From positions 1-35,290 of IMG/VR virus record IMGVR_UViG_3300027847_001126: DNA of 35,290 nucleotides. One strand, 5' to 3'. Positions 4,627 to 35,099 of this stretch are shown one piece after another. The notes beneath the pieces were generated by a model that saw nothing but the letters and a program-made list of their open reading frames with translations, was not told the origin of the DNA and did not search any database. The position numbers were made by a program, and so were the translations under genes. Origin of the DNA: a virus. Within the stretch, counting starts at the first letter, position 1. Every line of letters starts with the position of its first letter.

Positions 4627-5049
4627 ATGGCAGATACAACATATACAGAACTTGAATATGATAAAGATACGGGTGCAGCAATATATTCTGATGTAGATTT
4701 ATCGTTCAAAGTTCATCCTATTACGGGAGATCTTCTCAAAACAAAGAACTCTACTGTTATAAAACAGTCTATGCGTAATGTTTTACAAACTAGAGAATTC
4801 GAAAGAATAGGACATCCCGAAATTGGATCAAATTTACAAGGTCTGTTGTTTGATCCCATGAATAAAATAACAGAAACTCGATTAAGATTAAGTATTGAAA
4901 CAACTATGCAGGCCCTCGAACCGCGTGCTATAATAAGAGATATCTTTGTGATAGCTGAAGAGGATTTAAATAGGTATAGAGTAAAAATAATTTTCACTAT
5001 GATGGGACAACAATCCTCAGAAACCTTCGAACAATTTTTATATAGATAG
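4627..5049 (+). CDS. 25: Baseplate wedge subunit gp25
   Basis: This is the 140-residue gp25-like wedge component, a small protein distantly related to the T6SS protein TssE, that joins gp6 and gp53 in the wedge and links baseplate to tube and sheath. The sequence shows the family layout: a short N-terminal tail, DVDLSFKVHPITGDL near residue 23, the helix VIKQSMRNVLQTREFER, then the strongly conserved GSNLQGLLFDPMN, and a C-terminal beta part ending in FEQFLYR. Its length is close to T4 gp25 (132 residues). A GGAG site at 4613-4616 supports the ATG at 4627. The gp6 gene follows after 8 bases, as expected for the wedge operon. I am confident of this call. Confidence 0.93.
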   Translation: MADTTYTELEYDKDTGAAIYSDVDLSFKVHPITGDLLKTKNSTVIKQSMRNVLQTREFERIGHPEIGSNLQGLLFDPMNKITETRLRLSIETTMQALEPRAIIRDIFVIAEEDLNRYRVKIIFTMMGQQSSETFEQFLYR

Positions 5050-15366: not shown

Positions 15367-18300
15367 GTGTCTGGAGTAAAAACAAATTTTAACATTGCAC
15401 CATACTATGATGACTATGATAAAAATAAAAACTTTCATAGAATTTTATTCAGGCCTGGTTTTGCAGTTCAAGCAAGAGAGTTAACTCAATTACAAACAAT
15501 CTTACAAGAACAGGTATCTAGGTTTGGTGATAATATCTTCAAAGAAGGTAGTAAAGTTTTTGGTGGGGATGTTACCCTTAATAATCAAGTTAATTCTTTA
15601 AAATTAGAATCTGCATTTGATAATGCAGATGTTGCCGTAACTAATTTTGCTCAAAAAACTATCACTGGTGGAACATCAGGAGCTAAAGGTTTAGTTATTC
15701 AAGCTGAGCCCGGAACTGTTTCAGATCAACCAACATTACTTTTTTCAAAATTGGGTGGTGGTGATTTTATAGACGGTGAAACAATTTCTACTTTAGAAGG
15801 CGTGCCATGGCAAGCTAATACGGTTAGTTTAAGTGGAACTGCCGGTATCGCTGCAGCTCAAAATACTGCATCCATTGCAAGTATTTCGGAAGGTGCTTTT
15901 TATATTAGTGGATTTTTTGTAGTTGTTCAAGATCAAACTATTTCATTAGACAAATATAGTAATAGTCCTACTAAGAGAATTGGATTACTCGCTACTGAAG
16001 AAATCGTTCAGACAGATGATGATCCATCTATTTTGGATAATGCTCAAGGGACTGCCAACTATGCCGCTCCCGGTGCAGATAGATTTGCTATAAATTTAAC
16101 ATTAGCGGCTCTAGATATAGTGACAGAAACAGTCGGAGCTGATGGAACAACGACTGTCACTAGTGACACTATTTCAGAATTTGCTGGTGAAAAATTTATA
16201 GAATTAACTAGAGTTGAATTAGGTGTTAAAACAACAGAAACGAAATATCCACTATATGCGGAAATTGAAAAGACAATGGCACGCAGAACTTTCGATGAAA
16301 GTGGAAGTTATACTGTTCGACCATTTGGAATTCAATTAAAAGATCATATAACCGGTAATAATTCTTTAATTTCTGCCGGATTAGAAGCAGGTAAGGCATA
16401 TGTAAAGGGATATGAATATGAAAGTATCGCTACACGATATGTTGATGTTGAAAAAGGAAGAGATACTGCAGCTATTTCGGATTATATAGTTGCTGCTGAT
16501 TATGGAAATTCTTTATATCTCAATAAAGTTTTAGGAACGTTTGATATTTCTAAACACGAACTTGTCGACCTTCATTGTTGTGATGCTGCAGTTGTTAACT
16601 CAGCAATAGGTGATTCAAATGCGCTGGAAAAATATAATCAAACAAAAATGGGTACAGCGAGAGTAAGATCGTTCGATTGGGAACAAGCGGATCTAGTCAC
16701 ATCTAATACTACTCATTATCATTCAGTTTATTCGACACGAATATATGATATACGTTTAAATAAAACTATTAATGCGCAAGTTTCCGGAGAAGGTGATGAT
16801 CTTATAACAATCGGAATGCCGGCAGACAAAACTTCTTATGCCAACGGAGCATATAAAGGAGCAACTCTCACAGTTAATACTACACTTGCCGGAGCTTCTA
16901 CCAGCGATGTTGTTACTATCGCAGAATATATAGCTATTGGTTCCCAACATAAAGCAATAAGTAATACCGCATTATCACAAAAAGTTCAATCTAATTCAAC
17001 TTTTTCTATTTCTTTTAAATTTCAAGATTTGGGATCTTTAATTGTCAAGCACGGAGCTAAAAGTCAATTAACTGAAGCTAATAGTTCATGTGTAGTTAAG
17101 ACAACACAAGCCAATATAGATAAATTATCAAGATTTAATAATGATCCTGAAGGTACGGCTTTATTGGCTGGCACAAGTAAAAATTCTTTAATTTTTCAAT
17201 TACCATTTTCACCTTTAGCATCTATTCCGGATGGAATAACTTATACTTATAAAACATTTCAATCTGTATCTGTTCCCATTGCTGGAACAACAACTGTTTC
17301 AACCGCAACAGGATCTTTTATAGGAACAGGAAGTTTACCTGCTTCTACAGCAAAAGAATTATATTCCGTGGTTGTTAAAACAATTGATAACCCTTCAAAT
17401 CCTCCTATAGATAATGTTACAGGAGAAGAATTAACTGAGGGCCAAATATTAGAATTTTCTTCAGCAACTGGAAGAACAGCAACCATTGATAGTGCATCTC
17501 AAACTACATTAAATTTAAATTCAAAAAATGGTGCATATCAAGTTGAAATTCTTTCAACTATTAGAACAGCAAATGCATCTCCAAGATCAAAAACTTTAAC
17601 AATTGGAAATACTACAAATTTATCATCTAATACTGATATATCAAAAGGACAAGTTCATTTTATATTACCTAATAAACAAGCCGGTAAAAAAGATAACTTA
17701 ATGATCTCAGATGTATTTAACTTAGTATATGTTATTGATTCCGGAGATAAATCAGCAGCCGTTACTTCAACACATTTAGCAGCCCTTAGAGATATAACAT
17801 CGACAACAGCAAAGAATATTACAGCAAATTATGAATTAGATAATGGTCAAAGAGATAACTATTATGATCATGCGTCTATTATTTTAAAACCCGGAGCCGC
17901 TGGACCGATAGGTCAAATGTTAGTAATCGTTGACCATTTTAGTAACCCTGCTCTCGATCCACCCATACAAGATGCCCTAGCAGGATACTTTTCGGTTCAA
18001 TCGTATGCCGATGTAGGTGCTAACACTGGTTATCATTATGGTTTAAACGGAGTTAAGAGAGAAGGTCTTAATTTTGATAAAATTCCTTCATTTACAAGTC
18101 CTACAACGGGCGAAGAAATTCAATTAAGAGATAGTATAGATTTTAGACCGTCGCGTTATTCTGCAAATAATGATAAAGGTTCTAATACAACAAATGATCT
18201 TACTTCTAATAATTCTGCTTTTCCATCATCTCAATTAGGAGCAGCTGGAGGCACTCCAGATCCAGAATATACATTGCAGTTTAATACAAACTATTATTTG

Positions 18301-21300
18301 GGTCGAAAAGATAAACTAGTTTTATCTAAAGATAGAGTTTTTAGAGTTCTTAAAGGAGTTCCTTCGAGGGAACCAATTACTCCTCCAGACGATGATGATT
18401 CTATAACATTATATACCTTAACTATTCCTCCTTATACTTTTAATACCGGAGATATTAAAACCAAGTATATTGATAATAGACGATATACAATGAGAGATAT
18501 TGGTAAGTTAGAAAAAAGAATTGAAAATCTTGAATACTATACTGCATTATCAATGCTCGAAAAAGAAGCTGCTGCAACATCAATATCGGGCGGATCAACA
18601 AAAGATTCTCTTTTTAATCCTGCCGGAGATAGATTTAAGAATGGTATTCTTGTAGATGGATTTAAAGGTCACTCTATAGGCGACGTAATAAACACTGATT
18701 ATTTATGTTCCATAGACATAGAAAAAAATGAATTAAGGCCTCCATTTAAAGCAGATGCCTTTAGTTTTCAATTATCAAAAGGATCTAGTAATAATATTTC
18801 ATACCATTTACCAGGTCCGGAATTAGCTACTTTACCATTTACAACAGCTAATCTAGTTAATCAACCATTGGCTAGTTCTTATAAAGCTATTAATCCTTAT
18901 GCCTTAGCTCAATTTTCTGGAGGGATAAAAACATTTCCAGATTCTGATGTATGGTATGATTCTTCTATAAGACCAGAAGTGTTAGTTAATTTAGAAGGGG
19001 TTAATGATAATTGGCAATTCGGAGCTGTAAATGGTGGACACGGATCTCAATGGGATGATTGGACAAAAATTTGGACTGGCGAGCAAATTAACCCAGAACC
19101 AGAAATAAGTGTAAAAGATGCTGGAGCAACCTCAGGAGGAATAAGAAAAGCAACTCTAATTTCTCAAGGTCAAACTAGAAGAGGTATTACTTCGAAGAAT
19201 ATTCCTGATTCTATTAAAAGAAGTTTGGGCAATAAAGTCGCAGATATTTCTATGACTTTTTGGATGAAACCTCATTTACTTAAATCACAATATGCCCCAG
19301 ACGATGATAGAATTTATTTTGTTGCTAAAGGAATGAAACCATCAACAAATGTAGCGATATTTTTTGACGGCACGAATGTTACAGCTAATGTATATCCTAT
19401 GCCTTTTCTTGTTCTTAATGCCGTGGATACTGCTAAACATTTAATTCAGGGAGAAACTCTTTCCGAAGGTGCTAATGTTTGTCAGATAATTATGCCAGAA
19501 AAAACTACCTCTGGTGGAACAGCAACTGGTTACATTAAAGTAATTAAAGCACATGATCAAAATGGTGATAATGCTGATATAGATCAAACATTTAGTCCAA
19601 GTACAACAACTATTTTATCTTCCAATAGTGGAATTTCTGCCGTAGTTTCTAATAGAACTGTTCCCACAAAAGGACAGGCTTCTTACATGACAACCAATTT
19701 AGCCGGATCTTTTGCTGGCGTTCTTAGTTTACCTAAAGCCGCACATAAAGCCGGTGAAAGATTATTAAGAGTTACCGATGAAGTAAATGATAAGGTTGCA
19801 AATTCTACCATGGCTGCCGAATGTACTTTTCATGTAAGAGGTTTATTGGATGGTAGGGAAGCAACTTCAATTTCAACAAGACCATCTACCTCGCGAAGAG
19901 AAGATGTTACTAATGAAAATGTTATAACAAGTGTTACTAGTAGAGTTGAAGGATCTCAAGGTTGGATGGATCCACTAACTCAAACATTTATTGTTAATAA
20001 GAGTAATTATGTAGAAGGTGTTTTTGTTAAATCTGTTGATTTATTTTTTAGACAAAAAGCAACTGCTAATAGTTCTACACCCCAATTACCCGTTACTGTT
20101 CAAATTAGACCATTAATTAATGGGCTTCCGAGTTGCGGAACAATTTTACCATTTGCGGAAGCATCCTTAAAACCAGAATCAATTCAAACTACTGTCTCTG
20201 CACCAGAAGCTGCAAATGCATTACATGTTACTACATTTGAATTCCCGGCACCGGTTTATTTAACTGGCGATGAATATGCATTAGTAATCATTTCTAATAG
20301 TAGTGAATATCAATTATGGACAGGAATACAGGGTCTAAATCCTTTAAGTACGGCTGCTATTAGTCCCAATTTTAGAATACCAAAACAACCGAATGTAGAA
20401 GACTTATATTTACCTACTAATGCAGGAGTTGTAAATAAATCTCCGGGCGAAGCTTTAATGATGAGAATCAACAGATGTCATTTTACAACAATGAATGAAG
20501 GTAATATAATCTTGATGTCTAATTCTACTAGCCAGTCTGCCGCAACATCTAATGTTTTTGCTGATGTATATAAACTTAATACATCAATAATGCAATTTGA
20601 TAGTTCAACAGTTGGATTTTCTTATAAAACTTCGAATACAGCCGGAAGTTATATCTCAACTAATTATGTTGCTGGCGAAAGAGATAAAAATGTTTATCCT
20701 ACTGAACGTATAATGATGCCGGCTAATACGGCTAATTCATTTAGTTGTCTTGTTGGAATTAGATCAACATCAAAATTTGTTTCCCCTGTTATTGATATTT
20801 CGAGATTTAGTTTAATAACTCTTGAAAATGATGTAGATAATGCAGCAATTGCAAATTCTCAAGTATATGTAATTAATGCAGGAGCTAATTATACATCTAC
20901 AGCTGTTGCAACAGTAGACGGAGGAAATGGGACAGGCGCGCTGATAGATTTAACAATTACTTCGGGTGAGATTACAGCAGCAACTGTATCAGCCGGTGGA
21001 TCTAGCTATACAGGATCTCCAACGATAACCGTAACAGATCCTGCACATACAGGAGAGAACTTTTGTAATATAGTTATAAGTAGTGAATTAGATAGTCAAG
21101 GTGGACCGATCAATACTAAATATATAACAAGAAAGGTTAATCTTGAAGATGGTTTTGAAGCTGAAGATTTAAAAGTTATAGTTAATGCTTATAAACCAGA
21201 AAGTGCAAAAATACATGTATATGCAAAAGTATTGAGCCCAGACGACACAGAATCATTTGATGACAGAGGATATATTCAATTAGAACAAGAAACGGCAACT

Positions 21301-21498
21301 TCTGTTAATTCATTAAATGAAGATGATTTTAAAGAATTTTTATATAGATCCCCCGGTGATTCAATTGATTATGTAGATGATAATGGAACGAATTATAAGA
21401 AGTTTAAAACCTTCGCAATTAAAGTATGTTTACTTTCAACTAGTACATTAGATGTACCAAGAGTGAAAGATTTAAGAGCAATAGCATTAGATGAATAA
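15367..21498 (+). CDS. Giant virion structural protein, DUF4815-like, 2043 aa
   Basis: The start (FNIAPYYDDYDKNKNFHRIL, then RPGFAVQARELTQLQTILQ) is a hallmark of a family of large structural proteins of marine and other myophages (DUF4815-like). Further recognisable parts are RYTMRDIGKLEKRIENLEYY near 1040, RRGITSKNIPDSIKRSLGNKV near 1272, a FVAKGMKPSTNVAIFFDGT stretch near 1318, DPLTQTFIVNKSNYVEGVFV near 1536, and VQIRPLINGLPS near 1579. An SGAKGLVI module (about 101-160) and an NAGANYTST/AGGSSYTGSP pair (about 1837-1890) are shared with neighbours. The start is GTG at 15367, shortly after AGAAAGAG. Its place right after gp8 suggests a baseplate-attached arm or fibre base, in a role comparable to T4 gp9-gp10; that is inference. 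I am sure it is a structural protein, not of its exact role. Confidence 0.75.
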   Translation: MSGVKTNFNIAPYYDDYDKNKNFHRILFRPGFAVQARELTQLQTILQEQVSRFGDNIFKEGSKVFGGDVTLNNQVNSLKLESAFDNADVAVTNFAQKTITGGTSGAKGLVIQAEPGTVSDQPTLLFSKLGGGDFIDGETISTLEGVPWQANTVSLSGTAGIAAAQNTASIASISEGAFYISGFFVVVQDQTISLDKYSNSPTKRIGLLATEEIVQTDDDPSILDNAQGTANYAAPGADRFAINLTLAALDIVTETVGADGTTTVTSDTISEFAGEKFIELTRVELGVKTTETKYPLYAEIEKTMARRTFDESGSYTVRPFGIQLKDHITGNNSLISAGLEAGKAYVKGYEYESIATRYVDVEKGRDTAAISDYIVAADYGNSLYLNKVLGTFDISKHELVDLHCCDAAVVNSAIGDSNALEKYNQTKMGTARVRSFDWEQADLVTSNTTHYHSVYSTRIYDIRLNKTINAQVSGEGDDLITIGMPADKTSYANGAYKGATLTVNTTLAGASTSDVVTIAEYIAIGSQHKAISNTALSQKVQSNSTFSISFKFQDLGSLIVKHGAKSQLTEANSSCVVKTTQANIDKLSRFNNDPEGTALLAGTSKNSLIFQLPFSPLASIPDGITYTYKTFQSVSVPIAGTTTVSTATGSFIGTGSLPASTAKELYSVVVKTIDNPSNPPIDNVTGEELTEGQILEFSSATGRTATIDSASQTTLNLNSKNGAYQVEILSTIRTANASPRSKTLTIGNTTNLSSNTDISKGQVHFILPNKQAGKKDNLMISDVFNLVYVIDSGDKSAAVTSTHLAALRDITSTTAKNITANYELDNGQRDNYYDHASIILKPGAAGPIGQMLVIVDHFSNPALDPPIQDALAGYFSVQSYADVGANTGYHYGLNGVKREGLNFDKIPSFTSPTTGEEIQLRDSIDFRPSRYSANNDKGSNTTNDLTSNNSAFPSSQLGAAGGTPDPEYTLQFNTNYYLGRKDKLVLSKDRVFRVLKGVPSREPITPPDDDDSITLYTLTIPPYTFNTGDIKTKYIDNRRYTMRDIGKLEKRIENLEYYTALSMLEKEAAATSISGGSTKDSLFNPAGDRFKNGILVDGFKGHSIGDVINTDYLCSIDIEKNELRPPFKADAFSFQLSKGSSNNISYHLPGPELATLPFTTANLVNQPLASSYKAINPYALAQFSGGIKTFPDSDVWYDSSIRPEVLVNLEGVNDNWQFGAVNGGHGSQWDDWTKIWTGEQINPEPEISVKDAGATSGGIRKATLISQGQTRRGITSKNIPDSIKRSLGNKVADISMTFWMKPHLLKSQYAPDDDRIYFVAKGMKPSTNVAIFFDGTNVTANVYPMPFLVLNAVDTAKHLIQGETLSEGANVCQIIMPEKTTSGGTATGYIKVIKAHDQNGDNADIDQTFSPSTTTILSSNSGISAVVSNRTVPTKGQASYMTTNLAGSFAGVLSLPKAAHKAGERLLRVTDEVNDKVANSTMAAECTFHVRGLLDGREATSISTRPSTSRREDVTNENVITSVTSRVEGSQGWMDPLTQTFIVNKSNYVEGVFVKSVDLFFRQKATANSSTPQLPVTVQIRPLINGLPSCGTILPFAEASLKPESIQTTVSAPEAANALHVTTFEFPAPVYLTGDEYALVIISNSSEYQLWTGIQGLNPLSTAAISPNFRIPKQPNVEDLYLPTNAGVVNKSPGEALMMRINRCHFTTMNEGNIILMSNSTSQSAATSNVFADVYKLNTSIMQFDSSTVGFSYKTSNTAGSYISTNYVAGERDKNVYPTERIMMPANTANSFSCLVGIRSTSKFVSPVIDISRFSLITLENDVDNAAIANSQVYVINAGANYTSTAVATVDGGNGTGALIDLTITSGEITAATVSAGGSSYTGSPTITVTDPAHTGENFCNIVISSELDSQGGPINTKYITRKVNLEDGFEAEDLKVIVNAYKPESAKIHVYAKVLSPDDTESFDDRGYIQLEQETATSVNSLNEDDFKEFLYRSPGDSIDYVDDNGTNYKKFKTFAIKVCLLSTSTLDVPRVKDLRAIALDE

Positions 21499-21748
21499 AA
21501 ATATCCAAACAGAAGATCCGAGATTTGTTAGAGACGTACATTCTAAAGCTCTATTAAATACGGATAAAGATGCCCTAAATAAACATAGATTGGAGCGCAT
21601 GGCTGCAGCTAAACTAAAAGCGCAGCATGATGAAGCGCGCGAAACACAAGCCGCACATCATAAACAACTCCAAGAATTAAAGTCTACTGTGGATAAAATT
21701 GAAAAATTAATACATAAAGTTTTAGAAAAGGATAACAATGGCAGCTAA
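21491..21748 (+). CDS. Small conserved coiled-coil protein, 85 aa
   Basis: The ATG lies inside the end of the preceding gene (8-base overlap) and the stop lies 11 bases into the next gene, so all three are translated as a linked block. The N-terminus reads DPRFVRDVHSKALLNTDKDAL, which resembles a small protein family found between structural genes of many T4-like marine phages (pattern PxFVRDxxSxAhhNTD). The rest is a charged helix with a coiled-coil pattern, ending LQELKSTVDKIEKLIHKVL. No catalytic motif is visible. It may be a virion-assembly or scaffold factor, but the function is unknown. Confidence 0.75.
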   Translation: MNKNIQTEDPRFVRDVHSKALLNTDKDALNKHRLERMAAAKLKAQHDEARETQAAHHKQLQELKSTVDKIEKLIHKVLEKDNNGS

Positions 21749-23273
21749 CGTAGCTTTATCAGATACGTTTGACTTATGGAGAACGCGTACTAATCAACTA
21801 TTAATGTACACTCAAATTCAGGGTGGCAAAGATGTTGTACACGTTTCTAATACTACTAATGCAACATCAACTACGACGGGTGCGATAACTTCAAACGGTG
21901 GTATTGGAATTTTGGAATCGGCTGTTGTTGGCGGTAGTGTTCTCATAAACACAAATTTAACTGTAGATAAAGATGTAGTAATAACAGGAAATACTGATAT
22001 CGGTGATACTTCTGCTGATACATTAACAATTAGTGCAAGAATAGATGCTGATGTAATTCCTTATACCGATGAAGCTAGAAATTTTGGTAATAGTACTTGG
22101 AGATGGGGAACAGTTCATGTAGGAGGCATTGCAGGATCAAATTCTTCCGCTTCATTACATATACCAGTAGGATCTAGTGCAGAAAGAGCCGGAGGAACAG
22201 GTTCAATTAGATGGAATACAACATTAAGTAGATTTGAAGGAAATACTGGTAGTTCTTTTTATCCTTTAGCTCAACCAGAAGATCAAGATGGCGATACAAA
22301 TATTACTACAGATAATGGTAGTGATGAAGATATAATCAGATTTTTTACTGGTAATTCTATAACTGAATCTACCGAGCGAATGAATCTGGGAACTTCAGGT
22401 AATCTCGCAATCGGTACGGGTTCCACAACCGGCGATGCACAACTTCAAGTTAGCGGCACTGTAAACGTTGGCGGGACTACGAATTTTGGAAATAGAGTTA
22501 ATATAAGAGGAAATACTTATATCTATGATTCAGCCGAGTGGTGTAATGTTGCACCTTCTAGTTGGTTTCATATACATTCTCCAGATACTACCATCGATTC
22601 CGAAAACGTTATTATTACTGGTAATTTAGTTGTTCAAGGTACTAGAACTTATAATGATACAACAGTTACAGTTACTGAAGATAAAACTTTTGTAATTGGT
22701 TTAGCTGGAAACGTTTATAGTGATAGTGATGCCTCTTCTGGTACTATTACTTCGCAAAGAAATAATGCTACTGAAAATCACGGATTATCAGTTTCAGATA
22801 AAGTTTTTATTGTGGTTGCCGGTACTTCTGGTTTAACAGATGAAGGAATTTATATAGTTGCAACAGTACCAACAGTTACAACATTTACATTAACAGGTTA
22901 TTCTGGCACCGGAACGTTTGATTGGGCTAAATGTCATACCGATGCACAAGCTAGTGGCGGAGGTCTAGTTATACCTGCTACAACTAAACATTCATTTACA
23001 TATGAAAGTTCTCTTAGCGCATGGTTAGTATCAGATGGTGGAAAAGTCAACGGAGCTTTTCAGGTAACTGGTACATCAGATTTTGATGGAGATTTAGATA
23101 TTGATGCCGACGTTGTTCATGATGGAACTTTTACCCATGCAGGGACATTCAAAACTACTGCAGATACTACCGCAGCAGCAAATTATTTTTTGAAGAGTGC
23201 GGATGCTGCTGGAACAAGTTCTTGGGTAGCATTTGGAATTTATGACTCATCCGGAACAAGACTCGGACCTTAA
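21738..23273 (+). CDS. Tail-fibre-like virion protein, 511 aa
   Basis: The protein starts with a short helix (SDTFDLWRTRTNQLL) and then runs as a Thr/Asn/Gly-rich, beta-repeat protein. It includes GNTDIGDTSADTLTI, a DEARNFGNSTWRWGTVHVG segment (about 112-130) of the kind seen in phage fibre proteins, and later VTGTSDFDGDLDIDADV and FTHAGTF. The middle (about 315-415) has a VTEDKTFVIGLAG part typical of trimeric fibre shafts. The N-terminal helix plus repetitive shaft suits a fibre anchored at the baseplate. There is no recognisable chaperone or endosialidase domain at the C-terminus. The start overlaps the small upstream gene by 11 bases. It is a fibre or fibre-like protein; which T4 fibre it replaces is unknown. 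Confidence 0.7.
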   Translation: MAANVALSDTFDLWRTRTNQLLMYTQIQGGKDVVHVSNTTNATSTTTGAITSNGGIGILESAVVGGSVLINTNLTVDKDVVITGNTDIGDTSADTLTISARIDADVIPYTDEARNFGNSTWRWGTVHVGGIAGSNSSASLHIPVGSSAERAGGTGSIRWNTTLSRFEGNTGSSFYPLAQPEDQDGDTNITTDNGSDEDIIRFFTGNSITESTERMNLGTSGNLAIGTGSTTGDAQLQVSGTVNVGGTTNFGNRVNIRGNTYIYDSAEWCNVAPSSWFHIHSPDTTIDSENVIITGNLVVQGTRTYNDTTVTVTEDKTFVIGLAGNVYSDSDASSGTITSQRNNATENHGLSVSDKVFIVVAGTSGLTDEGIYIVATVPTVTTFTLTGYSGTGTFDWAKCHTDAQASGGGLVIPATTKHSFTYESSLSAWLVSDGGKVNGAFQVTGTSDFDGDLDIDADVVHDGTFTHAGTFKTTADTTAAANYFLKSADAAGTSSWVAFGIYDSSGTRLGP

Positions 23274-23292: not shown

Positions 23293-24696
23293 ATGGCATC
23301 ACCATTAAAAGTTTACAATTCTGGATCGGCTGTTCAAGTAATGACCGAAGCAGAAATCGACAGTATGATAGTACCTCTTGTTCTGCAAGAGTTTGCGTCT
23401 AATAATGTTTATAATGTAAGAGGAAATTGTACCGCGTATGCTAATAATGATGGCAACGTCGGTTCCTTTGATAATAGATACAGAGACGATGACGTAGGTG
23501 ATCATCCTATTTCCGCATCGAATTTTACCACAACCACTTGGTCTATCCAACAAGAACAATCCAACGCTGCTAGTACAGCTAACGTAATCTATCCAACAAA
23601 ACTTATTGTTTCAGGCAATAAACTTCAGCAAATGAACTTTGCGGATTTAATAGCTACTATTCTAGCTAGAGTTTCTAATAATTGGAGAACTAATTTATAT
23701 CCTGTAGGAGGTTATTATTTCGGCCCTGCCGCGCCCGATGCAGATACATGGATTTATACTGGCGACGCTGTAACAGAAACTTATAGACAAGCTGGTGCTG
23801 ATAGTGAAATTGTTTATAGGTTATGGAGAAAAACTGCCCCCAATACAACTTCTGGTGATCGGCCTATTTATAATAGGCCAGGTAATGATGGTGTTCAGGA
23901 AATGACTGATGCTGATATTAAATCATTAGCGGCGGAGTGGAGAAATTATTTGATGAATAGCAGTGTCGGAGAAGATATTGGTTATTATAAATTAGTAGTT
24001 GGCACTTCAACCCCGACTCCCGGAACATGGGTTCAAACCGGTGCTTATACAGATTATCTAACAGATACTGGCGATGTAATTTATTCCCAAGGATATGAAG
24101 GAATATATTCTCAAATGTATGAAGGAATATATTCAGGACAATATTTAGGATTATATTCTGGACAATTTACAGGTATATATTCTGGACAATTTACAGGTAT
24201 ATATTCAGGTCAATTCACTGGACTTTTTTCACGTGGTTATGAAGGTTTTTATTCGCAAGGATATTCCGGTGGATATGCAGGTGGTTATCAAGGTCCTTAT
24301 CAAGGTGGATATACAACCGCATATACTGTAACATATGGGTCTGGAAGTGAAGCTCCTAATCCTCAAGCTTCTTCGGAAGGTGGTTCATTTTCTCATACAT
24401 ATTCTGGAGTTTATTCTGGAATTTTTTCAGGTACATTTTCTGGACAATATTCTAATCAATTTGCTGGATTTTATTCTAATCAATATGAGGGAATTTATTC
24501 ACAAGGTTTTCAAGGAATATATTCACAGGGATTTGAAGGAATATATTCACAGGGTTTTGAAGGATATTATTCTCAAATGTATGTAGGAATATATTCAGGA
24601 CAATATTCTGGATTTTATAGTAATCAATATACGGGGAGAACTGTATTAGCTTCTTTAGATTCTCAGCCGTATACTTTTTGGAAGAGGATTAACTAA
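23293..24696 (+). CDS. Virion-associated protein with aromatic octapeptide repeats (paralogue A), 467 aa
   Basis: The N-terminal half (1-262) contains two related short units, each led by VQVMTEAEID (about residue 15) or VQEMTDADIK (about 200), with KLVVGTSTPTPGTWVQTGAY near the end of the half. From residue 264 the protein turns into a repeat of eight residues, Y-S-x-x-Y/F-x-G-x, in two blocks (264-349 and 370-448) separated by the linker PNPQASSEGG. It ends with YTFWKRIN. Aromatic residues at positions 1 and 5 and Gly at 7 dominate. It is adjacent to and overlaps (1 base, TAATG) a paralogue with the same C-terminal plan. Both follow a fibre-like gene, so a fibre tip, adhesin or particle-decoration role is likely, but that is inference. 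Confidence 0.7.
   Translation: MASPLKVYNSGSAVQVMTEAEIDSMIVPLVLQEFASNNVYNVRGNCTAYANNDGNVGSFDNRYRDDDVGDHPISASNFTTTTWSIQQEQSNAASTANVIYPTKLIVSGNKLQQMNFADLIATILARVSNNWRTNLYPVGGYYFGPAAPDADTWIYTGDAVTETYRQAGADSEIVYRLWRKTAPNTTSGDRPIYNRPGNDGVQEMTDADIKSLAAEWRNYLMNSSVGEDIGYYKLVVGTSTPTPGTWVQTGAYTDYLTDTGDVIYSQGYEGIYSQMYEGIYSGQYLGLYSGQFTGIYSGQFTGIYSGQFTGLFSRGYEGFYSQGYSGGYAGGYQGPYQGGYTTAYTVTYGSGSEAPNPQASSEGGSFSHTYSGVYSGIFSGTFSGQYSNQFAGFYSNQYEGIYSQGFQGIYSQGFEGIYSQGFEGYYSQMYVGIYSGQYSGFYSNQYTGRTVLASLDSQPYTFWKRIN
24082..24339 (+). repeat. Octapeptide repeat block 1 of paralogue A
   Basis: Tandem 24-base units encode Y-S-x-x-[YF]-x-G-x. Two units are identical at DNA level (24154-24177 and 24178-24201, encoding YSGQFTGI), and a third at 24202 differs mainly at synonymous positions. 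This pattern suggests recent unit duplication inside an older repeat array. Confidence 0.85.
24400..24636 (+). repeat. Octapeptide repeat block 2 of paralogue A
   Basis: A second array of the same eight-residue unit (for example YSQGFEGI and YSNQFAGF) follows the PNPQASSEG linker. Three near-identical copies of YSQGF-x-GI or -GY lie at about 24496-24570. Confidence 0.8.
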
Positions 24697-26435
24697 TGAG
24701 TAAACCTTGTCGAATATTGCCATTTGGAGCGAATACCGGGCTTGGTTCTAGTGAAACAGGCAATTTGTTTATAGGAAAATTAACAGAAACGGGTTCCGGT
24801 GCTTCAGCGAATGTTGGAGAAATATGGGGAATAAATGAGCATCAGGGTGCCAGTGGTCAAGATACATATAAGAACGATATTGATGCAGGAGACTACTTAG
24901 TAATTAGATATCAAGAATATGGAATGCTCGGCGTTGGGCAGTTCATTAAAGTTACAAATGTTACCGGTACTTTTGGCTCAGCAGTATTAACATTGGAAGA
25001 TGGTGCAGCTCCCGACATTTATAGTTATTTAAATGCGTCCGGCGGAAATTATACTGGTCAAACTGATGTTGAAGTTATTTTTGAAAAAGTAGAAAGTTGG
25101 GGCGTACAGGAAATGACTGTAGACCAAATCGATGAGTCATGTGTTGTTCCTATTTTTGAAAGATGGGGAAGTTATACAAAAGGAACGGCAGGCAATGATT
25201 TTTGGAAGGGCCATGTCCGACCGATTTCTGGCACCAGTGCTACAGCCGGTTTTACTAGTGCTGGATATATAGGTGAAAGATATAGAAGTCCGGACGTTGT
25301 AGGAGATCACCCAGTTGCGAATAATGTATCTATAACTAATGTATTATTAGAATATAATTCCGGCAGTGATCCATATAATGGAACCAGTTTTAATGAAACT
25401 CATGTTGATGATACAGATAGTGTTCCTCCATTTATTAAGGTCGACGGCAGTAATGTCAAAGTTATGACTGAATCAGAAATGGAAGATAGTTCAGATACTG
25501 TAATCGAAAGATGTGTTCAATATTATATTAGTGCAGCTAATACAGTAGGTTCTTATCATATTGGAACATCACCTGGAGATGGAGATACTAGTTCTTGGCA
25601 TAGTGAAACATTTTTTGAAGATAATGTTATATCCTCATCCGGTGCTGCAAATACTACTTATAATCTCTATAGAAAAGAATCTGGTATAACAAGAGGATGG
25701 AGCGGTACTAGATTATTATCAAATGCTAATACAACTTCAAGAGCTGCAAATTCCGTTTATTATTTTGGTGGAACTAATACTGATTATATTGCCGTTGGAA
25801 ATTATCCACGTGCTGCAACAGATGAAGTAATTTATAAACCTATATATCAAGATACTCCTAATCTAAAAGAAACGGCGTATACCGCTGGTATTTCCGGAAC
25901 TTTAACAAATACTGCTAATGATGCAGGAATGCATTTATATTGGCATAAACGTTTATTAAGAAATGTTCTTTCAAAAACAATAGGTACTTATGCATTTGTT
26001 GCCGGCGGTTCCGCGCCTGGATCCGGTACATGGCAAGCCGTAGGAACATGCTCGGATAGATTAACAACCATTGGAGATGTAATTTATTCTCAAGGATATG
26101 AAGGTATCTATTCTGCATCATATGAAGGTATCTATTCTGCTGGGTTTCAAGGGCCATATGAAGGAATTTATTCTTCCGGTTTTCAAGGTGGATATACTTT
26201 TACATATGGGTCTGGAGGAGAATCTCCTAATCCTCAAGCTTCTTCAGAGGGTCCAACATATTCTGGAGTTTATTCTTCTGGCTTTACAGGAATATATTCA
26301 GGAATATATTCTCAGGGCTTTACATCAACATATTCAGGCCAATATTCTGGATTTTATAGTAATCAATATACAGGCACAACAGTTTTTACTGTCCTGGAAC
26401 AAGATGATTATTCTTTCTGGAAAAGAGTAACATAA
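24696..26435 (+). CDS. Virion-associated protein with aromatic octapeptide repeats (paralogue B), 579 aa
   Basis: This paralogue of the preceding protein has a longer N-terminal part (1-460) with units led by VQEMTVDQID (about 141) and VKVMTESEME (about 255). These recall the VQVMTEAEID units of paralogue A, and a GSAPGSGTWQAVG segment parallels its GTSTPTPGTWVQTG. From residue 464 it has YSQGYEGI-type octapeptides, the linker ESPNPQASSEG, more repeats, and the ending YTGTTVFTVL...YSFWKRVT, nearly the same as paralogue A. The array is shorter and less regular. The first 100 residues (LGSSETGNLFIGKL, GDYLVIRYQEYG) differ. The shared C-terminus and variable N-terminus suggest domain shuffling or gene duplication. 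Function is unknown. Confidence 0.7.
   Translation: MSKPCRILPFGANTGLGSSETGNLFIGKLTETGSGASANVGEIWGINEHQGASGQDTYKNDIDAGDYLVIRYQEYGMLGVGQFIKVTNVTGTFGSAVLTLEDGAAPDIYSYLNASGGNYTGQTDVEVIFEKVESWGVQEMTVDQIDESCVVPIFERWGSYTKGTAGNDFWKGHVRPISGTSATAGFTSAGYIGERYRSPDVVGDHPVANNVSITNVLLEYNSGSDPYNGTSFNETHVDDTDSVPPFIKVDGSNVKVMTESEMEDSSDTVIERCVQYYISAANTVGSYHIGTSPGDGDTSSWHSETFFEDNVISSSGAANTTYNLYRKESGITRGWSGTRLLSNANTTSRAANSVYYFGGTNTDYIAVGNYPRAATDEVIYKPIYQDTPNLKETAYTAGISGTLTNTANDAGMHLYWHKRLLRNVLSKTIGTYAFVAGGSAPGSGTWQAVGTCSDRLTTIGDVIYSQGYEGIYSASYEGIYSAGFQGPYEGIYSSGFQGGYTFTYGSGGESPNPQASSEGPTYSGVYSSGFTGIYSGIYSQGFTSTYSGQYSGFYSNQYTGTTVFTVLEQDDYSFWKRVT
26085..26375 (+). repeat. Octapeptide repeat region of paralogue B
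   Basis: Units of the form Y-S-x-x-[YF]-x-G-x run from residue 464 to about 560, interrupted by the PNPQASSEG linker. Some units are shortened to six or four residues (for example YSGVYSSGF and YEGIYSSGF), so the register slips. Confidence 0.75.
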
Positions 26436-26468: not shown

Positions 26469-27143
26469 ATGGCTGAACAAGAAGTGGCTGAACAAGAAGA
26501 GTGGACACATGATACAATGATTGAGGGCCTGTGGCGCTCAGATCAAAAAAAAGAAATTTCTATTCTTTATGAAAGACAAGATAAATCTAGATACTCTGGA
26601 CAGGCTTTAGAAGATTCACGAGAATGGAAAGATTTTTTTCACAAATTTACATCTGAACAAATTGATGAATTTTCTGAAACTAATAAACAGCAACGCGAAA
26701 TTCAAAATAAAGACAGAGGCCCTAGATCAAATATTAAACAAAGGGATGAAAAACAACGATTTGAAAGAAAAAGAGCTGCAGATGATTTAGAAACTTTATT
26801 CCGAGCTAAATTAGAAGCTTTTGAAATTCCAGAAGTTAGAGATAGTGAAAATAGAGAATTAAGATCCCGAATTAGAAAATCTAAATCATTAACAGAAATT
26901 TCCGCACTAGTTGCGTCTTTTATAACTTTATCTATAATTAGAGTAACTTTATCTGCGGAAGGTCTTTTGGATGAAAGATCTACAGAGGAACCAGCAGCTA
27001 ATACATCAACAATTGAAGCAGTGGCCGATAAGGAAATTGGACAAGAAGAATGGATTAGGACGAAAAAACCCGTATCAGACCCTGATGGGAAAGAGGAAAA
27101 TAATTACTTAGATTCATATCTAAAAAAATCAAATGAGGCATGA
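26469..27143 (+). CDS. Charged protein of unknown function, 224 aa
   Basis: The protein is very hydrophilic and rich in Glu, Arg, Lys and Gln, with a likely helical, coiled-coil centre (about 60-135, including RDEKQRFERKRAADDLETL). One hydrophobic stretch (ISALVASFITLSIIRVTL, about 144-161) could be a single membrane segment or a buried helix. The last 60 residues are acidic and low in complexity (EEPAANTSTIEAVADKEIG). There is an imperfect short repeat at the start (AEQEVAEQEEW). I recognise no family. It lies between the repeat proteins and a glycosyltransferase, with a clear AAAGGA site before ATG at 26469, and its stop overlaps the next gene by 11 bases. Confidence 0.65.
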   Translation: MAEQEVAEQEEWTHDTMIEGLWRSDQKKEISILYERQDKSRYSGQALEDSREWKDFFHKFTSEQIDEFSETNKQQREIQNKDRGPRSNIKQRDEKQRFERKRAADDLETLFRAKLEAFEIPEVRDSENRELRSRIRKSKSLTEISALVASFITLSIIRVTLSAEGLLDERSTEEPAANTSTIEAVADKEIGQEEWIRTKKPVSDPDGKEENNYLDSYLKKSNEA

Positions 27144-27930
27144 TCAGGGTTTTTTATTATGTGCCACTAATTTTAAACCATATCTCACCGCAGCGCAACA
27201 ATTAGCAGATAGCTTAAAAGAATTTGCTCCAAACCATCCAGTAATTTTATATACTGAAGATAAATGGGTATCTGATTCTGGCAATCATATATTCGATGAG
27301 GTTCACGGAGGCATGCCCGCTTCCAATAGAGCCAAATTATTAGCCTTACAACATTCCCCTTTTGATCTTACATGTTATCTTGATTCTGATATGGTATGTA
27401 TCAATCCTAGGGCTCCGGAAATATTTAATGGAATAAAAGATGGATATGATATGGCGTGGACTAAAATCAGAACATATGCTGCTGCTCAAACGTGGTGGGA
27501 TAAGAAAAATTTAAAAGTTCCTCATGGTGGAATGTGTTTATATAGAAAGTCTGAAAGGATGATTTCTTTTATGCAACAATGGTGGGAAAATTGGGTATGG
27601 AAAAGACGGTATGAATGGGATCCAAGATGGGAGGGTAAATATCCTTATTGGGAAACCAGAGGATGGGATCAGTTTCCTCTACATCTAATGTTAGGAGTTA
27701 TAAGACAGGATGATCCATGGTATCGTCCAGATATTAAATGGCACTGGGTATTTGGAGGAGATCCCCCTTGTACTCCTGAAACAAATGATTGGAATACAGG
27801 AGAAGATGCGAAATGGAATTGGATAATAGGATATCACCCAGAAAGAGAAGGCATAGACAGAGATGAAATAGTATTTCATGATTATTCTTGCTTATTATTC
27901 AAAAAACAATATCAAAACGGAAGAATATGA
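27133..27930 (+). CDS. Glycosyltransferase, GT-A fold, DxD type
   Basis: The protein starts GFLLCATNFKPYLTAAQQLADSL, a first strand and helix like those of nucleotide-sugar binding folds, then VILYTED, and has ASNRAKLLAL (63-72) before LTCYLDSDMVCI (79-90). In this last stretch D84-S85-D86 is the metal-binding DxD of GT-A glycosyltransferases. The following GYDMAWTKIR and HGGMCLYRKSE (about 120-130) are typical acceptor-side elements. The C-terminal half is unusually rich in Trp (WWENWVWKRRYEWDPRW). The product probably transfers a sugar from a nucleotide donor, perhaps to a virion protein, to DNA or to a host glycan; the substrate cannot be read. It overlaps the upstream gene by 11 bases and the downstream gene by 4 (ATGA). 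Confidence 0.75.
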   Translation: MRHDQGFLLCATNFKPYLTAAQQLADSLKEFAPNHPVILYTEDKWVSDSGNHIFDEVHGGMPASNRAKLLALQHSPFDLTCYLDSDMVCINPRAPEIFNGIKDGYDMAWTKIRTYAAAQTWWDKKNLKVPHGGMCLYRKSERMISFMQQWWENWVWKRRYEWDPRWEGKYPYWETRGWDQFPLHLMLGVIRQDDPWYRPDIKWHWVFGGDPPCTPETNDWNTGEDAKWNWIIGYHPEREGIDRDEIVFHDYSCLLFKKQYQNGRI

Positions 27931-28733
27931 ATCATATAGAACATATTACAAAATATTGTAATGATAATGAAGTATTAGATATTCTTCAAAAGTTGGGGGA
28001 ATATCTTTATGATTTAGATGAAGATAAAATAAGAATGGGTAGCAGAAGAATAATCACTTGGAAAGAAGCTGTTTGTGAAGAATATTTAACGGAATATAAA
28101 AAGTTGGTTAGACCAGGACCACCTTGGCATCAAGGCGTACATGATTTATTATTAGATTTAAGAACAAGAAATAGACATTTGAAAGTTGTTAAATTATGTG
28201 CGGATTTAGGTAAAAGAATAGGAGCACGACAACAAGCTCTAAGTACAATATATCCGCCTGGAGGATATATGAGCTGGCATCACAATGCCGATGTTCCCGG
28301 TAGAAATTTAATTTTTACTTGGTCTAAAACAGGCAAAGGAATTTTTAGATATAAAAGAAATATTCCAGGTGCAGAATCTTTAAATTATGATATTCCAGAT
28401 CAAGTTGGCTGGAATGTAAAATCATTCGATTGGTTCGGGCACGGAGAAATAGATCGTACCGGATATACTTGGCATGCAGCAGGAACTGAAAGTCTCAGAT
28501 CAACTCTTGCATTTGTGATTCATAGTAATCCGATGTCAAATATGCTCTTAGAAGAAGATTTTAATCTTCATCCTTGGAGCAATGGATGTTTTATAAGTGA
28601 AACTGATACACAAAATAAATCTGAATGGTGGAAAGAAACCAAAGAAGAAATTACAACGATGAAATTAAAATCAGAAATTAAAAAAAATATTGCATTAGGA
28701 CCTGCTGGTGTCAAAGCTCTTCAAACCCGCTAA
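27927..28733 (+). CDS. 2-oxoglutarate/Fe(II) oxygenase-like protein, 268 aa
   Basis: The core reads ALSTIYPPGGYMSWHHNADVPG, with W117-H118, then IFTWS, GIFRYKR, GWNVKSFDWF, and TGYTWHAAGTESLRSTLAF, with H183 and R191. This is the order of a phage-typical double-stranded beta-helix oxygenase family (GxMxWHTNxDxPG ... FRYRD ... WH ... R): the first His of the metal site, a distal His and an Arg for 2-oxoglutarate. The usual Asp of HxD is not clear; D122 lies four residues after H118. I chose the ATG at 27927 over 27888 because it makes a 4-base ATGA overlap with the glycosyltransferase stop and gives a normal N-terminus. Substrate unknown; hydroxylation of a phage or host protein or nucleotide is possible. 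Confidence 0.6.
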   Translation: MNHIEHITKYCNDNEVLDILQKLGEYLYDLDEDKIRMGSRRIITWKEAVCEEYLTEYKKLVRPGPPWHQGVHDLLLDLRTRNRHLKVVKLCADLGKRIGARQQALSTIYPPGGYMSWHHNADVPGRNLIFTWSKTGKGIFRYKRNIPGAESLNYDIPDQVGWNVKSFDWFGHGEIDRTGYTWHAAGTESLRSTLAFVIHSNPMSNMLLEEDFNLHPWSNGCFISETDTQNKSEWWKETKEEITTMKLKSEIKKNIALGPAGVKALQTR

Positions 28734-29313
28734 TTCCCCAATTGTTAGATCTCCAGCTTATGTTAGAATATCATCAAAATGGTTTAAAAAAAATGCTGAT
28801 GATATTATTAATAAGTTAGATAAAAAAATAATTCCTGGTACAACAGTAAATAATAATTCAAGTGCTAGAAAATCTGATGTATTTTTATGGGATATATGGA
28901 AAATAGATTTAATAGATTTACAAAAAGTAATAATTTATAAATTAAAAGAAATTTTTATAGAAGAAAATAAGAAATTTCAATTTGATTTAGATTATTCATC
29001 AATTAATGTTCAATATACAAAATATCAAAAAGGAGATTTTTATACGTGGCATACCGATGATGATTTTAATGCAACACACAAAAAACATCAAAATGTAAGG
29101 AAATTGAGTATAACCGCGGCATTAAATGTGGGATCATATGAGGGAGGAGATTTACAAATAATTTTAAATTATCAAAAAGAACCACGAACAATGCGCTTAG
29201 AATTTGGAGATGCATTAGTATTTCCCAGTTTCACACAACACCAAATTACCCCGATTACTGAAGGCATTCGCTATTCGCTAGTATCCTGGGTGTCAGGACC
29301 TCCATGGAGATAA
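28708..29313 (+). CDS. 2-oxoglutarate/Fe(II) oxygenase, P4H/PiuC-like, 201 aa
   Basis: The catalytic part is clear: YQKGDFYTWHTDDDF with H115-x-D117, then RKLSITAALN and SYEGGDLQI, FGDALVFPSFTQHQI with H178, and TEGIRYSLVSWVSGPPWR with R188. H115, D117 and H178 bind Fe(II), and R188 holds 2-oxoglutarate in this family. The ending GxRYSLVxWVxGPxW is typical of PKHD-type hydroxylases such as PiuC. The start appears to be GTG at 28708, giving a 26-base overlap with the upstream gene; no ATG lies nearer. It is shorter at the N-terminus than typical PiuC (about 225). The two neighbouring oxygenases suggest a shared modification task. The substrate is unknown; hydroxylation of a protein residue is the usual expectation. 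Confidence 0.85.
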   Translation: MSKLFKPANSPIVRSPAYVRISSKWFKKNADDIINKLDKKIIPGTTVNNNSSARKSDVFLWDIWKIDLIDLQKVIIYKLKEIFIEENKKFQFDLDYSSINVQYTKYQKGDFYTWHTDDDFNATHKKHQNVRKLSITAALNVGSYEGGDLQIILNYQKEPRTMRLEFGDALVFPSFTQHQITPITEGIRYSLVSWVSGPPWR

Positions 29314-32943: not shown

Positions 32944-33414
32944 ATGGCTGAAAAAGAAAAGGTTGTTGCAAATGGCAAAGACCAAAAAATAATACAACAT
33001 GATATTGAAGATTTAGATAAAAAGGTCGAAGAAGTTCAAGTCTTAGAAAATTTAATTAAAGATCAAACAGTTGCTAGTAAATCATTTATCTATGTTATCA
33101 TCGCACTTCTTATATATTTAATCTTTATGGTTATACCAGATATAGATGAAAAAGTTACATTTATGGAAAAGGATCTTAATTCCATTCTAGTTCAATCAGA
33201 ACGATACAAAAAATCAACTAGAGTATTTGCGAAAGATAATCAATGTGCGGGGTGTCATCTAAGTCCCGATTATTACCTCCACAATCTCTTAAAGAAATAT
33301 CCAAGTTTTTCTGATGTTAAAGCATTTATGTCGGTTGGTCATCAACGATATTATACTATGGCAGCACCACTACCTGATGCAGAACTATTAGAAATTTATC
33401 GAGCGTTGCAATGA
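32944..33414 (+). CDS. Membrane-anchored mini cytochrome c (CxxCH), 156 aa
   Basis: Residues 1-45 are charged and helical (IEDLDKKVEEVQVLENLI), residues 47-64 form one membrane segment (SFIYVIIALLIYLIFMVI), and the rest would be periplasmic. C101-A-G-C-H105 (bases 33244-33258) is a canonical heme c attachment motif. M139 in YYTMAAPLPDAELLEIYRAL sits where class I cytochromes c have the axial Met before the C-terminal helix (the usual MPxxxLxDxEL pattern). The cytochrome domain is thus only about 65 residues. I chose ATG at 32944, with GTGAGGT at 32933-32939, over the upstream ATG at 32917 that has no good site and overlaps the previous gene. Heme attachment would need host Ccm proteins. Its stop overlaps the next start (ATGA). 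Partner and function are unknown. Confidence 0.75.
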   Translation: MAEKEKVVANGKDQKIIQHDIEDLDKKVEEVQVLENLIKDQTVASKSFIYVIIALLIYLIFMVIPDIDEKVTFMEKDLNSILVQSERYKKSTRVFAKDNQCAGCHLSPDYYLHNLLKKYPSFSDVKAFMSVGHQRYYTMAAPLPDAELLEIYRALQ

Positions 33415-34526
33415 TTATGTTTGGTAAAATTATTGCATCTTTAGTTTGGGTTTTTTGGATAATGGCATTGTCTCCTGCCGGGGGACAAGATCCAATGAAA
33501 GAAAGACATGGAGTTGGTGTGCCAAAATCAGAATACAATCCAACGTATAGTTCAACATTCAATCGTGTAAAAGAAAGAGGAAATGTCATTTGTGGAACCA
33601 ATGATGAATTTCCCGGCTTCTCACAGGAAATTTGGAATAATGAAGATGGTGATAGGTGGGAAGGTTTTGATGTTGATATATGTCGTGCCGTTGCCGCCGC
33701 AATATTTGGTGATGCAGATGCAATCGAATTTACTATAGTCAATGGAAAAACACGATTTGAATTTTTAATAGATGGTTCTATAGATATTCTTTCAGCCGCC
33801 ACTACCTATACATTCACTAGAAACGTACTCAAAAAACTTGAGTTTGCTCCCACCACATATTATGACGGTCAAGGATTTATTGTAAGAAAAACACTTGGCG
33901 TGTCTTCAGCAAAACAACTAGAGGGCGCAAGGATTTGTTTTAGTTCTACTGGAACAGCTGCAAAGAACATTGCAGACTTTATGGAATTACATGGAATAAA
34001 TTATATCCCTGTCGCAGTACCACCTACTGAAAAAACAAAGAACGTATACAAAAGGGGTGACTGTGATATGTATGGTACTGATAGGTCTGGTCTTGCATCA
34101 AACAGATTAAGTTTTAGTGACCCTGATCGGCACATGATACTTCCAGAGATTATTTCAAAAGAACCATTAGGGCCAGTTGTCAAGTATGGAGATCAGAGAT
34201 GGTCAGATATTGTTCGATGGACAGTATATGTTCTTTTTATTGCAGAAGAAATGGGTATCAACTCAAAGAACATTGACTCGTTCAAGAACAACATAGACCC
34301 AAACATCCAACGATTTATGGGTGAGAAGAATGGTGTAGACCACCCCCATCTTGGTGCTAAACTAGGATTGCCCGCAACTTGGTCTTACGATATAATAAAA
34401 CAAGTTGGAAATTATAAAGAAATATATGAACGTAATGTGGGGCCAGATACCCCAATAGGATTACAACGAGGATTAAATAAACTTTATAGTCATGGAGGAC
34501 TACTATACGCACCACCATTAAAATAG
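33411..34526 (+). CDS. aapJ: AapJ-like general L-amino-acid ABC transporter substrate-binding protein
   Basis: A family 3 periplasmic solute-binding protein of 371 residues, about 30 longer than typical AapJ. A signal peptide lies at about 4-25 (IIASLVWVFWIMALSPAGG). Conserved AapJ segments appear in order: VICGTNDEFPGFSQ (59-71), WEGFDVDICRAVAAAIFGD (83-101), IDILSAATTYTFTRN (124-138), TTYYDGQGFIV, CDMYGTDRSGLAS (218-230), ILPEIISKEPLGPVV (243-257), DIVRW, KQVGNYKEIYERNVGP (330-345) and GGLLYAPP. R137 and D224 are at the positions that bind the carboxylate and amino groups of amino acids in this fold. The usual LSRNTT has become LSAATT. No permease or ATPase is nearby, so it would have to serve the host transporter. 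Base composition is richer in GC than neighbours, suggesting acquisition from a host. Overlap of 4 bases with the cytochrome gene. Confidence 0.9.
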   Translation: MIMFGKIIASLVWVFWIMALSPAGGQDPMKERHGVGVPKSEYNPTYSSTFNRVKERGNVICGTNDEFPGFSQEIWNNEDGDRWEGFDVDICRAVAAAIFGDADAIEFTIVNGKTRFEFLIDGSIDILSAATTYTFTRNVLKKLEFAPTTYYDGQGFIVRKTLGVSSAKQLEGARICFSSTGTAAKNIADFMELHGINYIPVAVPPTEKTKNVYKRGDCDMYGTDRSGLASNRLSFSDPDRHMILPEIISKEPLGPVVKYGDQRWSDIVRWTVYVLFIAEEMGINSKNIDSFKNNIDPNIQRFMGEKNGVDHPHLGAKLGLPATWSYDIIKQVGNYKEIYERNVGPDTPIGLQRGLNKLYSHGGLLYAPPLK

Positions 34527-34529
34527 TAC

Positions 34530-35099
34530 ATGAGATACGAACCGAGATACGATAAAAAGAATTACTTTGATGGTGTTCCAGAGGATAGAGCGGCGGTTGA
34601 TAATATTTTCAGATTAAATGTTACTAATCAAATGCGACTGAATATCAATGCCGACCAAAAGGCCGGACAAATGATTACAGTTTCAGCGATTGTGTTTTCC
34701 GTTACGGCAGCAAACTTTGACAATCCAATATTAATGTATCCGTTAATGTTTTTTGCGATTTGTTGTATTTTAACATTATTGTTTGCGATAATTGCGATAA
34801 TACCCAATGCCAAGTATCCTAAAAATAACTTAGGAAAACTGGATCAAATATCAGACCAATTTAATCCTTTGTATTTTGGACATTACTCTCATCTGACAAA
34901 GAATGAATATAAAGCATATTATGCCCTAACTTTATTGAACGATGACAGAATATATGATGCACTTGCAGAAGAAATTTATGTTTCAGGTAAAGCCCTCGCC
35001 CTTGTAAAGTATAAATGGTTGAGATGGTCTTATGGAATGTTTCTTTTCGGTATGGTAGGAAGTATAATGATTACTATATTTTCACTCATTGTGACATAA
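34530..35099 (+). CDS. PycTM-like (Pycsar effector, DUF5706) membrane protein, 189 aa
   Basis: Layout: N-terminal soluble part with FRLNVTNQMRLNINADQKAG (27-46), membrane segments at about 47-62, 68-92 and 165-188, and between them FNPLYFGHYSHLTKNEY (111-127), DDRIYDALAEEIYVSGKAL (138-156) and KYKWLRWSYGMFLFGMVGS (160-178). The ADxKA at the end of the first helix, the FFGHF-x-x-L-x-x-x-E-Y stretch and the IYxxGxxLxxKYxxLxxxYxxFxxG end follow the pattern I know for the PycTM/DUF5706 family. In bacterial Pycsar defence, PycTM proteins are membrane effectors activated by cyclic nucleotides. No cyclase or other signal gene is present here. It starts 3 bases after the aapJ-like stop, so it belongs to the same late block. 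The family call is by motif reading; function in a phage is open. Confidence 0.6.
   Translation: MRYEPRYDKKNYFDGVPEDRAAVDNIFRLNVTNQMRLNINADQKAGQMITVSAIVFSVTAANFDNPILMYPLMFFAICCILTLLFAIIAIIPNAKYPKNNLGKLDQISDQFNPLYFGHYSHLTKNEYKAYYALTLLNDDRIYDALAEEIYVSGKALALVKYKWLRWSYGMFLFGMVGSIMITIFSLIVT

Follow-up and report, generated by a model that had tools for sequence, protein, structure and literature searches.

Two adjacent genes, A and B, in a 35,290-nucleotide stretch of viral DNA (IMG/VR record IMGVR_UViG_3300027847_001126, positions 1 to 35,290; this whole stretch is called the window below) code for proteins with a long array of aromatic tetrads. The array is inserted in the last beta-hairpin of a folded module, and it consists of two arms of exactly matched length on either side of a turning loop. 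We consider it probable that A and B, which are paralogues, serve as virion fibre proteins in a marine T4-like (Kyanoviridae-related) phage, and that their array runs out and back as a hairpin. A wider claim, towards which the balance tips only slightly, is that they belong to a new class of viral fibre: one long antiparallel hairpin with a ladder of aromatic pairs, both ends at the virion and a receptor-facing tip at mid-chain, which lengthens only by synchronous, equal additions to both arms, and which reaches more than 3000 residues in marine viruses.

An aromatic array inside a folded module

Protein A (23293..24696, an open reading frame of 467 residues) and protein B (24696..26435, an open reading frame of 579 residues) are coded on the plus strand, as are all features given with coordinates of this form, and the two frames overlap by one base. 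The motif YSxx[YF]xGx is present in 18 copies in A and in 7 copies in B, whereas 5000 composition-preserving shuffles of the arrays give at most 3 and 2, respectively. In the array of A there are 41 aromatic-aromatic pairs at spacing 4 (shuffle mean 11.4, maximum 19) and none at all at spacing 2 or at spacing 6; B shows a similar pattern, with 18 pairs at spacing 4 versus 10 in the shuffles. The basic repeat unit is the tetrad [YF]-x-G-x, commonly doubled to the octad Y-S-x-x-[YF]-x-G-x, and relatives also contain pure tetrads, e.g. YAGGYAGG. The motifs PNPQASSEG and FWKR are found in both proteins. An earlier note on this DNA had described an octapeptide repeat with these two motifs in adjacent genes, over 24082-26375 (from the first tetrad of A through the last tetrads of B), and had read the genes as paralogues with a regular ladder of aromatics; the repeat is confirmed, and this reading of it is supported.

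Codon usage varies from repeat to repeat, and the individual units retain their own identity across the aligned relatives. In comparisons with two relatives, the nonsynonymous and synonymous values (pN/pS) in the array of A are 0.054/0.365 and 0.026/0.27, i.e. a ratio of about 0.1-0.15, indicating that this array is kept at the protein level. For the array of B there is a single comparison (0.040/0.033), which contains few changes and is hence uninformative.

Before the array, A consists of three N-terminal alpha/beta modules (about residues 1-257, 23293..24063), delimited by AlphaFold2 (AF2, run with 25 alignment rows) and hhalign. Each module is predicted to be beta-beta-helix-beta, with a predicted local distance difference test score (pLDDT) that is mostly 80-93 per 10-residue block, and 64-68 in some blocks. 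Modules 1 and 2 close with adjacent strand pairs, at residues 57-64/78-87 and 160-165/170-180. The equivalents in module 3 are the strands 246-254 and 458-465, with the array in between; here the neighbourhood of strands is taken from the DSSP string and from the homology of the modules. The C-terminal strand 458-465 has a pLDDT of 60-92.

To compare the modules, the array was first removed from module 3, and 22 distinct sequences were used on each side. Module 2 then matches module 3 from end to end (hhalign probability 98.9, E 1.4e-17), and in this match YRLWRKT of module 2 pairs with the C-terminal YTFWKR. Module 3 is closed by the FWKR strand at the C-terminus, and the array is inserted between the two strands of its last beta-hairpin. 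In this position the array is a lengthened hairpin turn, and its two ends must meet. The closing strand is located at 24655..24693 in A (TFWKR) and at 26388..26432 in B (SFWKR), where it was recognised as common to A and its relatives. Such a strand on the last module is a general feature of the hairpin-fibre family: it is seen in A, B, the protein of Phage C48C1 and the giant relatives L044-L075 described below. A C-terminal low-complexity tail is ruled out, since the C-terminal strand completes module 3. The statement in the earlier note that the genes end in repeat arrays is therefore right about the repeat, but not about the ending: the array sits inside a folded module and is followed by the strand that closes it.

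Arms of matched length

In A the outgoing arm covers residues 264-348 (24082..24336), the turning loop residues 349-365 (24337..24387, with PNPQASSEG at 24355-24381) and the returning arm residues 366-446 (24388..24630). From aromatic to aromatic the turning loop of A is 18 residues. In B the outgoing arm covers residues 464-504 (26085..26207), followed by a turning loop with PNPQASSEG (26208..26258) and a returning arm of residues 522-558 (26259..26369). These limits come from the aromatic tetrads and the arm measurement, in which the first arm extends from the tryptophan of GTW to the last aromatic ahead of PNPQASSEG, and the second from the first aromatic past PNPQASSEG to the tryptophan of WKR.

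Measured in this way, the outgoing arm is 5 residues longer than the returning arm in 23 of 23 distinct arrays (the truncated L033 excluded). After a further scan the difference is again exactly 5 in all 26 distinct A/B arrays, four incomplete pieces being excluded. The relatives share ancestry, so the 26 arrays are not independent events and the ten arm-length states they represent are a fairer count. These states range from 50/45 to 114/109, and every step is a multiple of 4; when the distinct states were shuffled separately in A and in B, equal differences came out in 5 of 100000 trials. With a cruder anchor, used earlier, the difference is 4 in 20 of 23 arrays and 5, 9 and 9 in the remaining three, which differ by longer turning loops only. 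The alignment gives the same picture: five relatives of A have 12 additional residues on either side of the turn (L033 ends after the second insertion), and L043 is short by 4 residues on either side. PNPQASSEG marks the turning point of the array. A comparison of repeat number among relatives had been proposed in the earlier note, and its outcome is thus ten length states with both arms changing in step.

These observations bear on two other explanations. One, raised in similar form in the earlier note, is that the arrays form an aromatic coat that is disordered, sticky, phase-separating or silk-like. The composition, rich in Tyr, Gly and Ser, fits such a coat, as does the very low AF2 confidence of the array (pLDDT 20-30 over residues 258-454 of A). 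However, neither residue-exact arm lengths nor position-specific conservation of the units across relatives is expected of a disordered tail, nor is a C-terminus that closes the base module. We therefore regard a low-complexity coat as very improbable.

The other explanation is a single-pass, triple-stranded beta-helix shaft like that of T4 gp5C, in which each octapeptide would be one rung and the equal halves would be incidental. The octads of gp5C carry Gly, Asn/Asp and Val, along with polar residues, at fixed positions (PMC3004832), and the aromatic tetrad could be a variant of such a pattern. Further, Synechococcus phage S-RIM2 has VTGN tetrads in the corresponding genomic slot. On the other hand, a single pass leaves both the matched arms in 26 of 26 arrays and the C-terminal strand completing the base module unexplained, no Gp5-type Pfam match is found up to E 10 with filters that drop weak matches, and the aromatics stand where gp5C has a small core valine. 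A shaft of this type is, in our judgement, improbable, though a little less so than the coat.

The family extends far beyond the close relatives. Scanning IMG/VR directly for A yielded 14 loci, at 70-100% identity, and a profile scan yielded 49 loci, 32 of which (L044-L075) are distant, with 27-33% identity in the N-terminal region. Most of these 32 loci code for giants bearing scores to hundreds of aromatic tetrads, which share the N-terminal modules and the closing strand with A and reach up to 3347 residues. Among named phage records, the N-terminal region was found in that of the cultured Phage C48C1 alone, where it belongs to a 3347-residue hypothetical protein. In that record (L001:19983-30026) a stretch of about 70 residues, KTRHRSYLYY...NFSGQY, stands in tandem twice in nearly identical form, which could be real or an effect of the assembly.

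The two paralogues in L044 have arms of 132/132 and 488/488 residues, separated by non-repeat centres of about 185 and about 133 residues, respectively. In the giants of the C48C1 type we used a 35-residue tetrad-free stretch as a landmark, comparing its distance from the array start with the distance of its partner from the array end; a single-motif landmark was dropped, as the motif recurs many times. The distances are equal in L051 (253/253), L052 (429/429), L064 (605/605) and L059 (365/365), and from L051 to L052 to L064 each arm grows by 176 residues at each step. The longer giant arms contain an internal super-repeat of 44 residues. Over 12 giants the two distances are correlated with r = 0.999, and none of 100000 permutations is as close. 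The match is exact in 7 of the 12, although L060 and L066 agree on one edge only, and L061 on the inner edge, with the other edge extrapolated across a partly filled gap.

The loci L045-L049 show slips of the aromatic phase, so the arm tests scarcely apply to them. In L049:4425-7982 the aromatics shift phase by one residue roughly every 29 residues, in four consecutive blocks at the array start, as though bulges had been placed at regular intervals.

A proposed hairpin fibre and its alternatives

In the fibre that we propose, the N-terminal alpha/beta modules would form the base, and in the final module the long array would take the place of the turn of the last beta-hairpin. The chain would run outward through [YF]xGx tetrads, turn at PNPQASSEG, return through the matching arm and end as the strand that closes the module. 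The N- and C-termini would thus both be at the base and the distal tip at mid-chain. The arms may pair as antiparallel beta-strands in a two-stranded ribbon, aromatic opposite aromatic and Gly opposite Gly, so that aromatics and glycines would alternate on one face, the single aromatic face of the ribbon. Several hairpins, probably three as in other tail fibres, could then pack face to face into a thin, stiff rod. At 0.33 nm per residue, extended arms would give an estimated length of about 30 nm for A and about 15-20 nm for B. The tip, i.e. the PNPQASSEG loop or in L044 the central domain, would contact the host, and the length of the fibre would be set by adding whole tetrads to both arms. 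Trimerisation, packing and receptor contact are drawn from general knowledge of tail fibres.

When the arms are aligned from the turn, 396 of 414 outgoing-arm aromatics are opposite a returning-arm aromatic. AF2 of a fragment of B lets the module strands run on into the array (residues 49-68 and 160-180), with low confidence (mean pLDDT 39.7).

A number of results weigh against this proposal. A shift of the register by one tetrad fits equally well (396 of 410), and the mutual information of residue classes between the arms picks no single register. AF2 provides no confident structure of the array, neither in A (pLDDT 20-30) nor in the fragment of B. Among the giants, the landmark is off by 4 residues in L050, L056, L062 and L063 and by 24 in L069; an automatic test of phase runs finds exact arm equality in just 2 of 25, and the mirror correlation of the whole profile is weak for most of them. 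No arm match is found in C48C1 itself, perhaps due to other domains interrupting the second arm. Finally, giant arms that are fully extended would measure hundreds of nanometres, which is unusual.

Some of these points would suit a different out-and-back arrangement, in which each arm is a separate compact rod, either a solenoid or part of an intertwined multimer, and the two rods lie side by side. Equal arm lengths follow equally from such rods, the simple flat hairpin receives no confident support from AF2, and a lone, long two-stranded ribbon would be unstable. In contrast, the arms depart from neighbouring strands of one hairpin, and the phase of the aromatics permits them to face each other directly. 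Separate rods therefore appear rather unlikely to us, although they are the strongest of the alternatives.

If the paired hairpin is right, it is a principle of fibre building without a counterpart among the sequences of Pfam, PHROGs and PDB that were searched. The equality of the arms would then be a ruler, based on sequence only, that locates the tip in unannotated giant phage proteins, and the position of the tip would tell where variation in host range is to be expected. It would also pose a clear problem for evolution, namely how the lengths of two separate parts of a single gene come to change together. In the design of stiff protein rods, a code as simple as [YF]xGx is attractive.

Genomic neighbourhood and comparison with known systems

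Genes A and B are positioned inside the tail/fibre block of a T4-like phage genome. Upstream there are baseplate wedge genes recognised by PHROG or Pfam (4627-5049, 5058-6944 and 13618-15345). Also upstream are a protein of great length assigned to phrog_358 (15367-21498), a small gene for a virion structural protein of phrog_473 (21491-21748) and a protein of 511 residues with no family assigned (21738-23273). Downstream, past the companion genes described below, a 2-oxoglutarate-Fe(II) oxygenase (28708-29313) is followed by a head-tail adaptor, a neck protein, a sheath stabiliser and the small terminase subunit. The fibre-region location given in the earlier note thus agrees with a place between the baseplate block and the neck and sheath-stabiliser genes, the slot that holds a repeat protein in S-RIM2.

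Three companion genes follow the fibre genes. Their frequency was counted in loci with a complete fibre gene and at least 1500 bases (37 loci) or at least 2500 bases (34 loci) downstream; 13 of 50 loci were excluded as incomplete or too short, and several loci are near-identical, so the counts are not independent. A charged protein of 224 residues (26469..27143), possibly a fibre-assembly factor, has a downstream tblastn match in 33 of the 37 loci. The next gene (27133..27930), present in 36 of 37 loci, has no Pfam match; its DSD/DAD (DxD) motif is presumably that of a glycosyltransferase-like protein. The single locus lacking it, L049, has another, incomplete fibre gene next. The third gene (27888..28733), present in 33 of 34 loci, looks dioxygenase-like by eye (SWHHNADVPG...WHAA) and has no Pfam or PHROG match. 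The glycosyltransferase-like and dioxygenase-like genes accompany the fibre gene even in the distant relatives and in C48C1, and we would guess from this neighbourhood that their products may modify the fibre, at Tyr or at Ser/Thr.

Elsewhere in the window, 34530-35099, beside the terminase region, matches the Pfam family PycTM (Pycsar effector protein, E 4.8e-20), a possible link to defence or anti-defence, and 33411-34526 codes for a phage-encoded family 3 extracellular solute-binding protein (PF00497, E 1.4e-11). As for the host, none of 7 records matches in a psbA test for a cyanobacterial host. The phage contig of one relative sits in an Acidimicrobiaceae metagenome-assembled genome of a genome collection, which is either a binning error or a hint of the host.

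No known family was recovered for A or B. The full proteins have no Pfam or PHROG match, and four pieces of them searched at E<=10 give chance-level matches only (phrog_19152, E 8.8; PF17851, E 0.84). With filters that drop weak matches, the array of A matches no Pfam family at E<=10, and that of B gives one weak, unrelated match. A profile of A has no match to PDB sequences at E<=1, and a match of the array to pyridoxal kinase (E 0.26) was rejected as chance. For the N-terminal modules, Foldseek finds no match at E<=0.001 in PDB or BFVD; VIA-align returns 6 chains, the best with Z 4.8 (perforin-2 P2), too weak to use. Array matches in Vibrio phages are taken as compositional: of two regions inspected, the match in one is in an opposite-strand misc_feature and that in the other is opposite an annotated gene. 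A keyword-level literature search (C48C1, tail-fibre repeats, hairpin layouts) found no description of the hairpin-fibre family.

The matched out-and-back layout was linked to no described protein family in the searches made here. Homology to a well-described repeat family, which the earlier note had named as counting against its proposal, was found in neither Pfam, PHROGs nor PDB sequences. Its remark that no phage protein of this kind is characterised holds as far as characterisation goes, but relatives do exist: the 3347-residue protein of C48C1 and many uncultured giants.

Three known systems can be compared with A and B. T4 gp5C resembles them in its eight-residue period and in a conserved Gly and hydrophobic residue. 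A gp5C octad has Val at position g, Gly at a and Asn/Asp at b; in A and B the Gly is present, but Tyr/Phe takes the place of Val. In gp5C a core valine goes with a single-pass, intertwined trimer, whereas A and B have Tyr/Phe and out-and-back arms.

The protein of Phage C48C1 (Kyanoviridae; OQ984149.1 141011-151054, WJE88074.1) is much closer. It shares the N-terminal modules (tblastn, 26% identity over 99% of A, E 2e-11), the aromatic tetrads, a closing strand (LYVRVA) and the downstream companion genes. It differs from A and B in its length of 3347 residues, in an Arg-rich variant of the repeat and in several non-repeat domains within the array.

In S-RIM2, the 1912-residue SWTG_00067 (YP_007675557.1; L024:3990-9728), a 'structural protein' by annotation only, occupies the same slot as A and B, flanked by a small virion structural gene on one side and the head-tail adaptor on the other. 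By analogy with this syntenic slot, a virion fibre is the likeliest role of A and B. SWTG_00067 has no detectable sequence relation to A, and neither the closing strand nor the GTW module is seen on reading its sequence. It too is built of tetrads, V/L-T-G-N/D, with an aliphatic ladder in contrast to the aromatic ladder of A and B. This suggests that VTGN and aromatic tetrads are alternative repeat solutions for one and the same fibre position.

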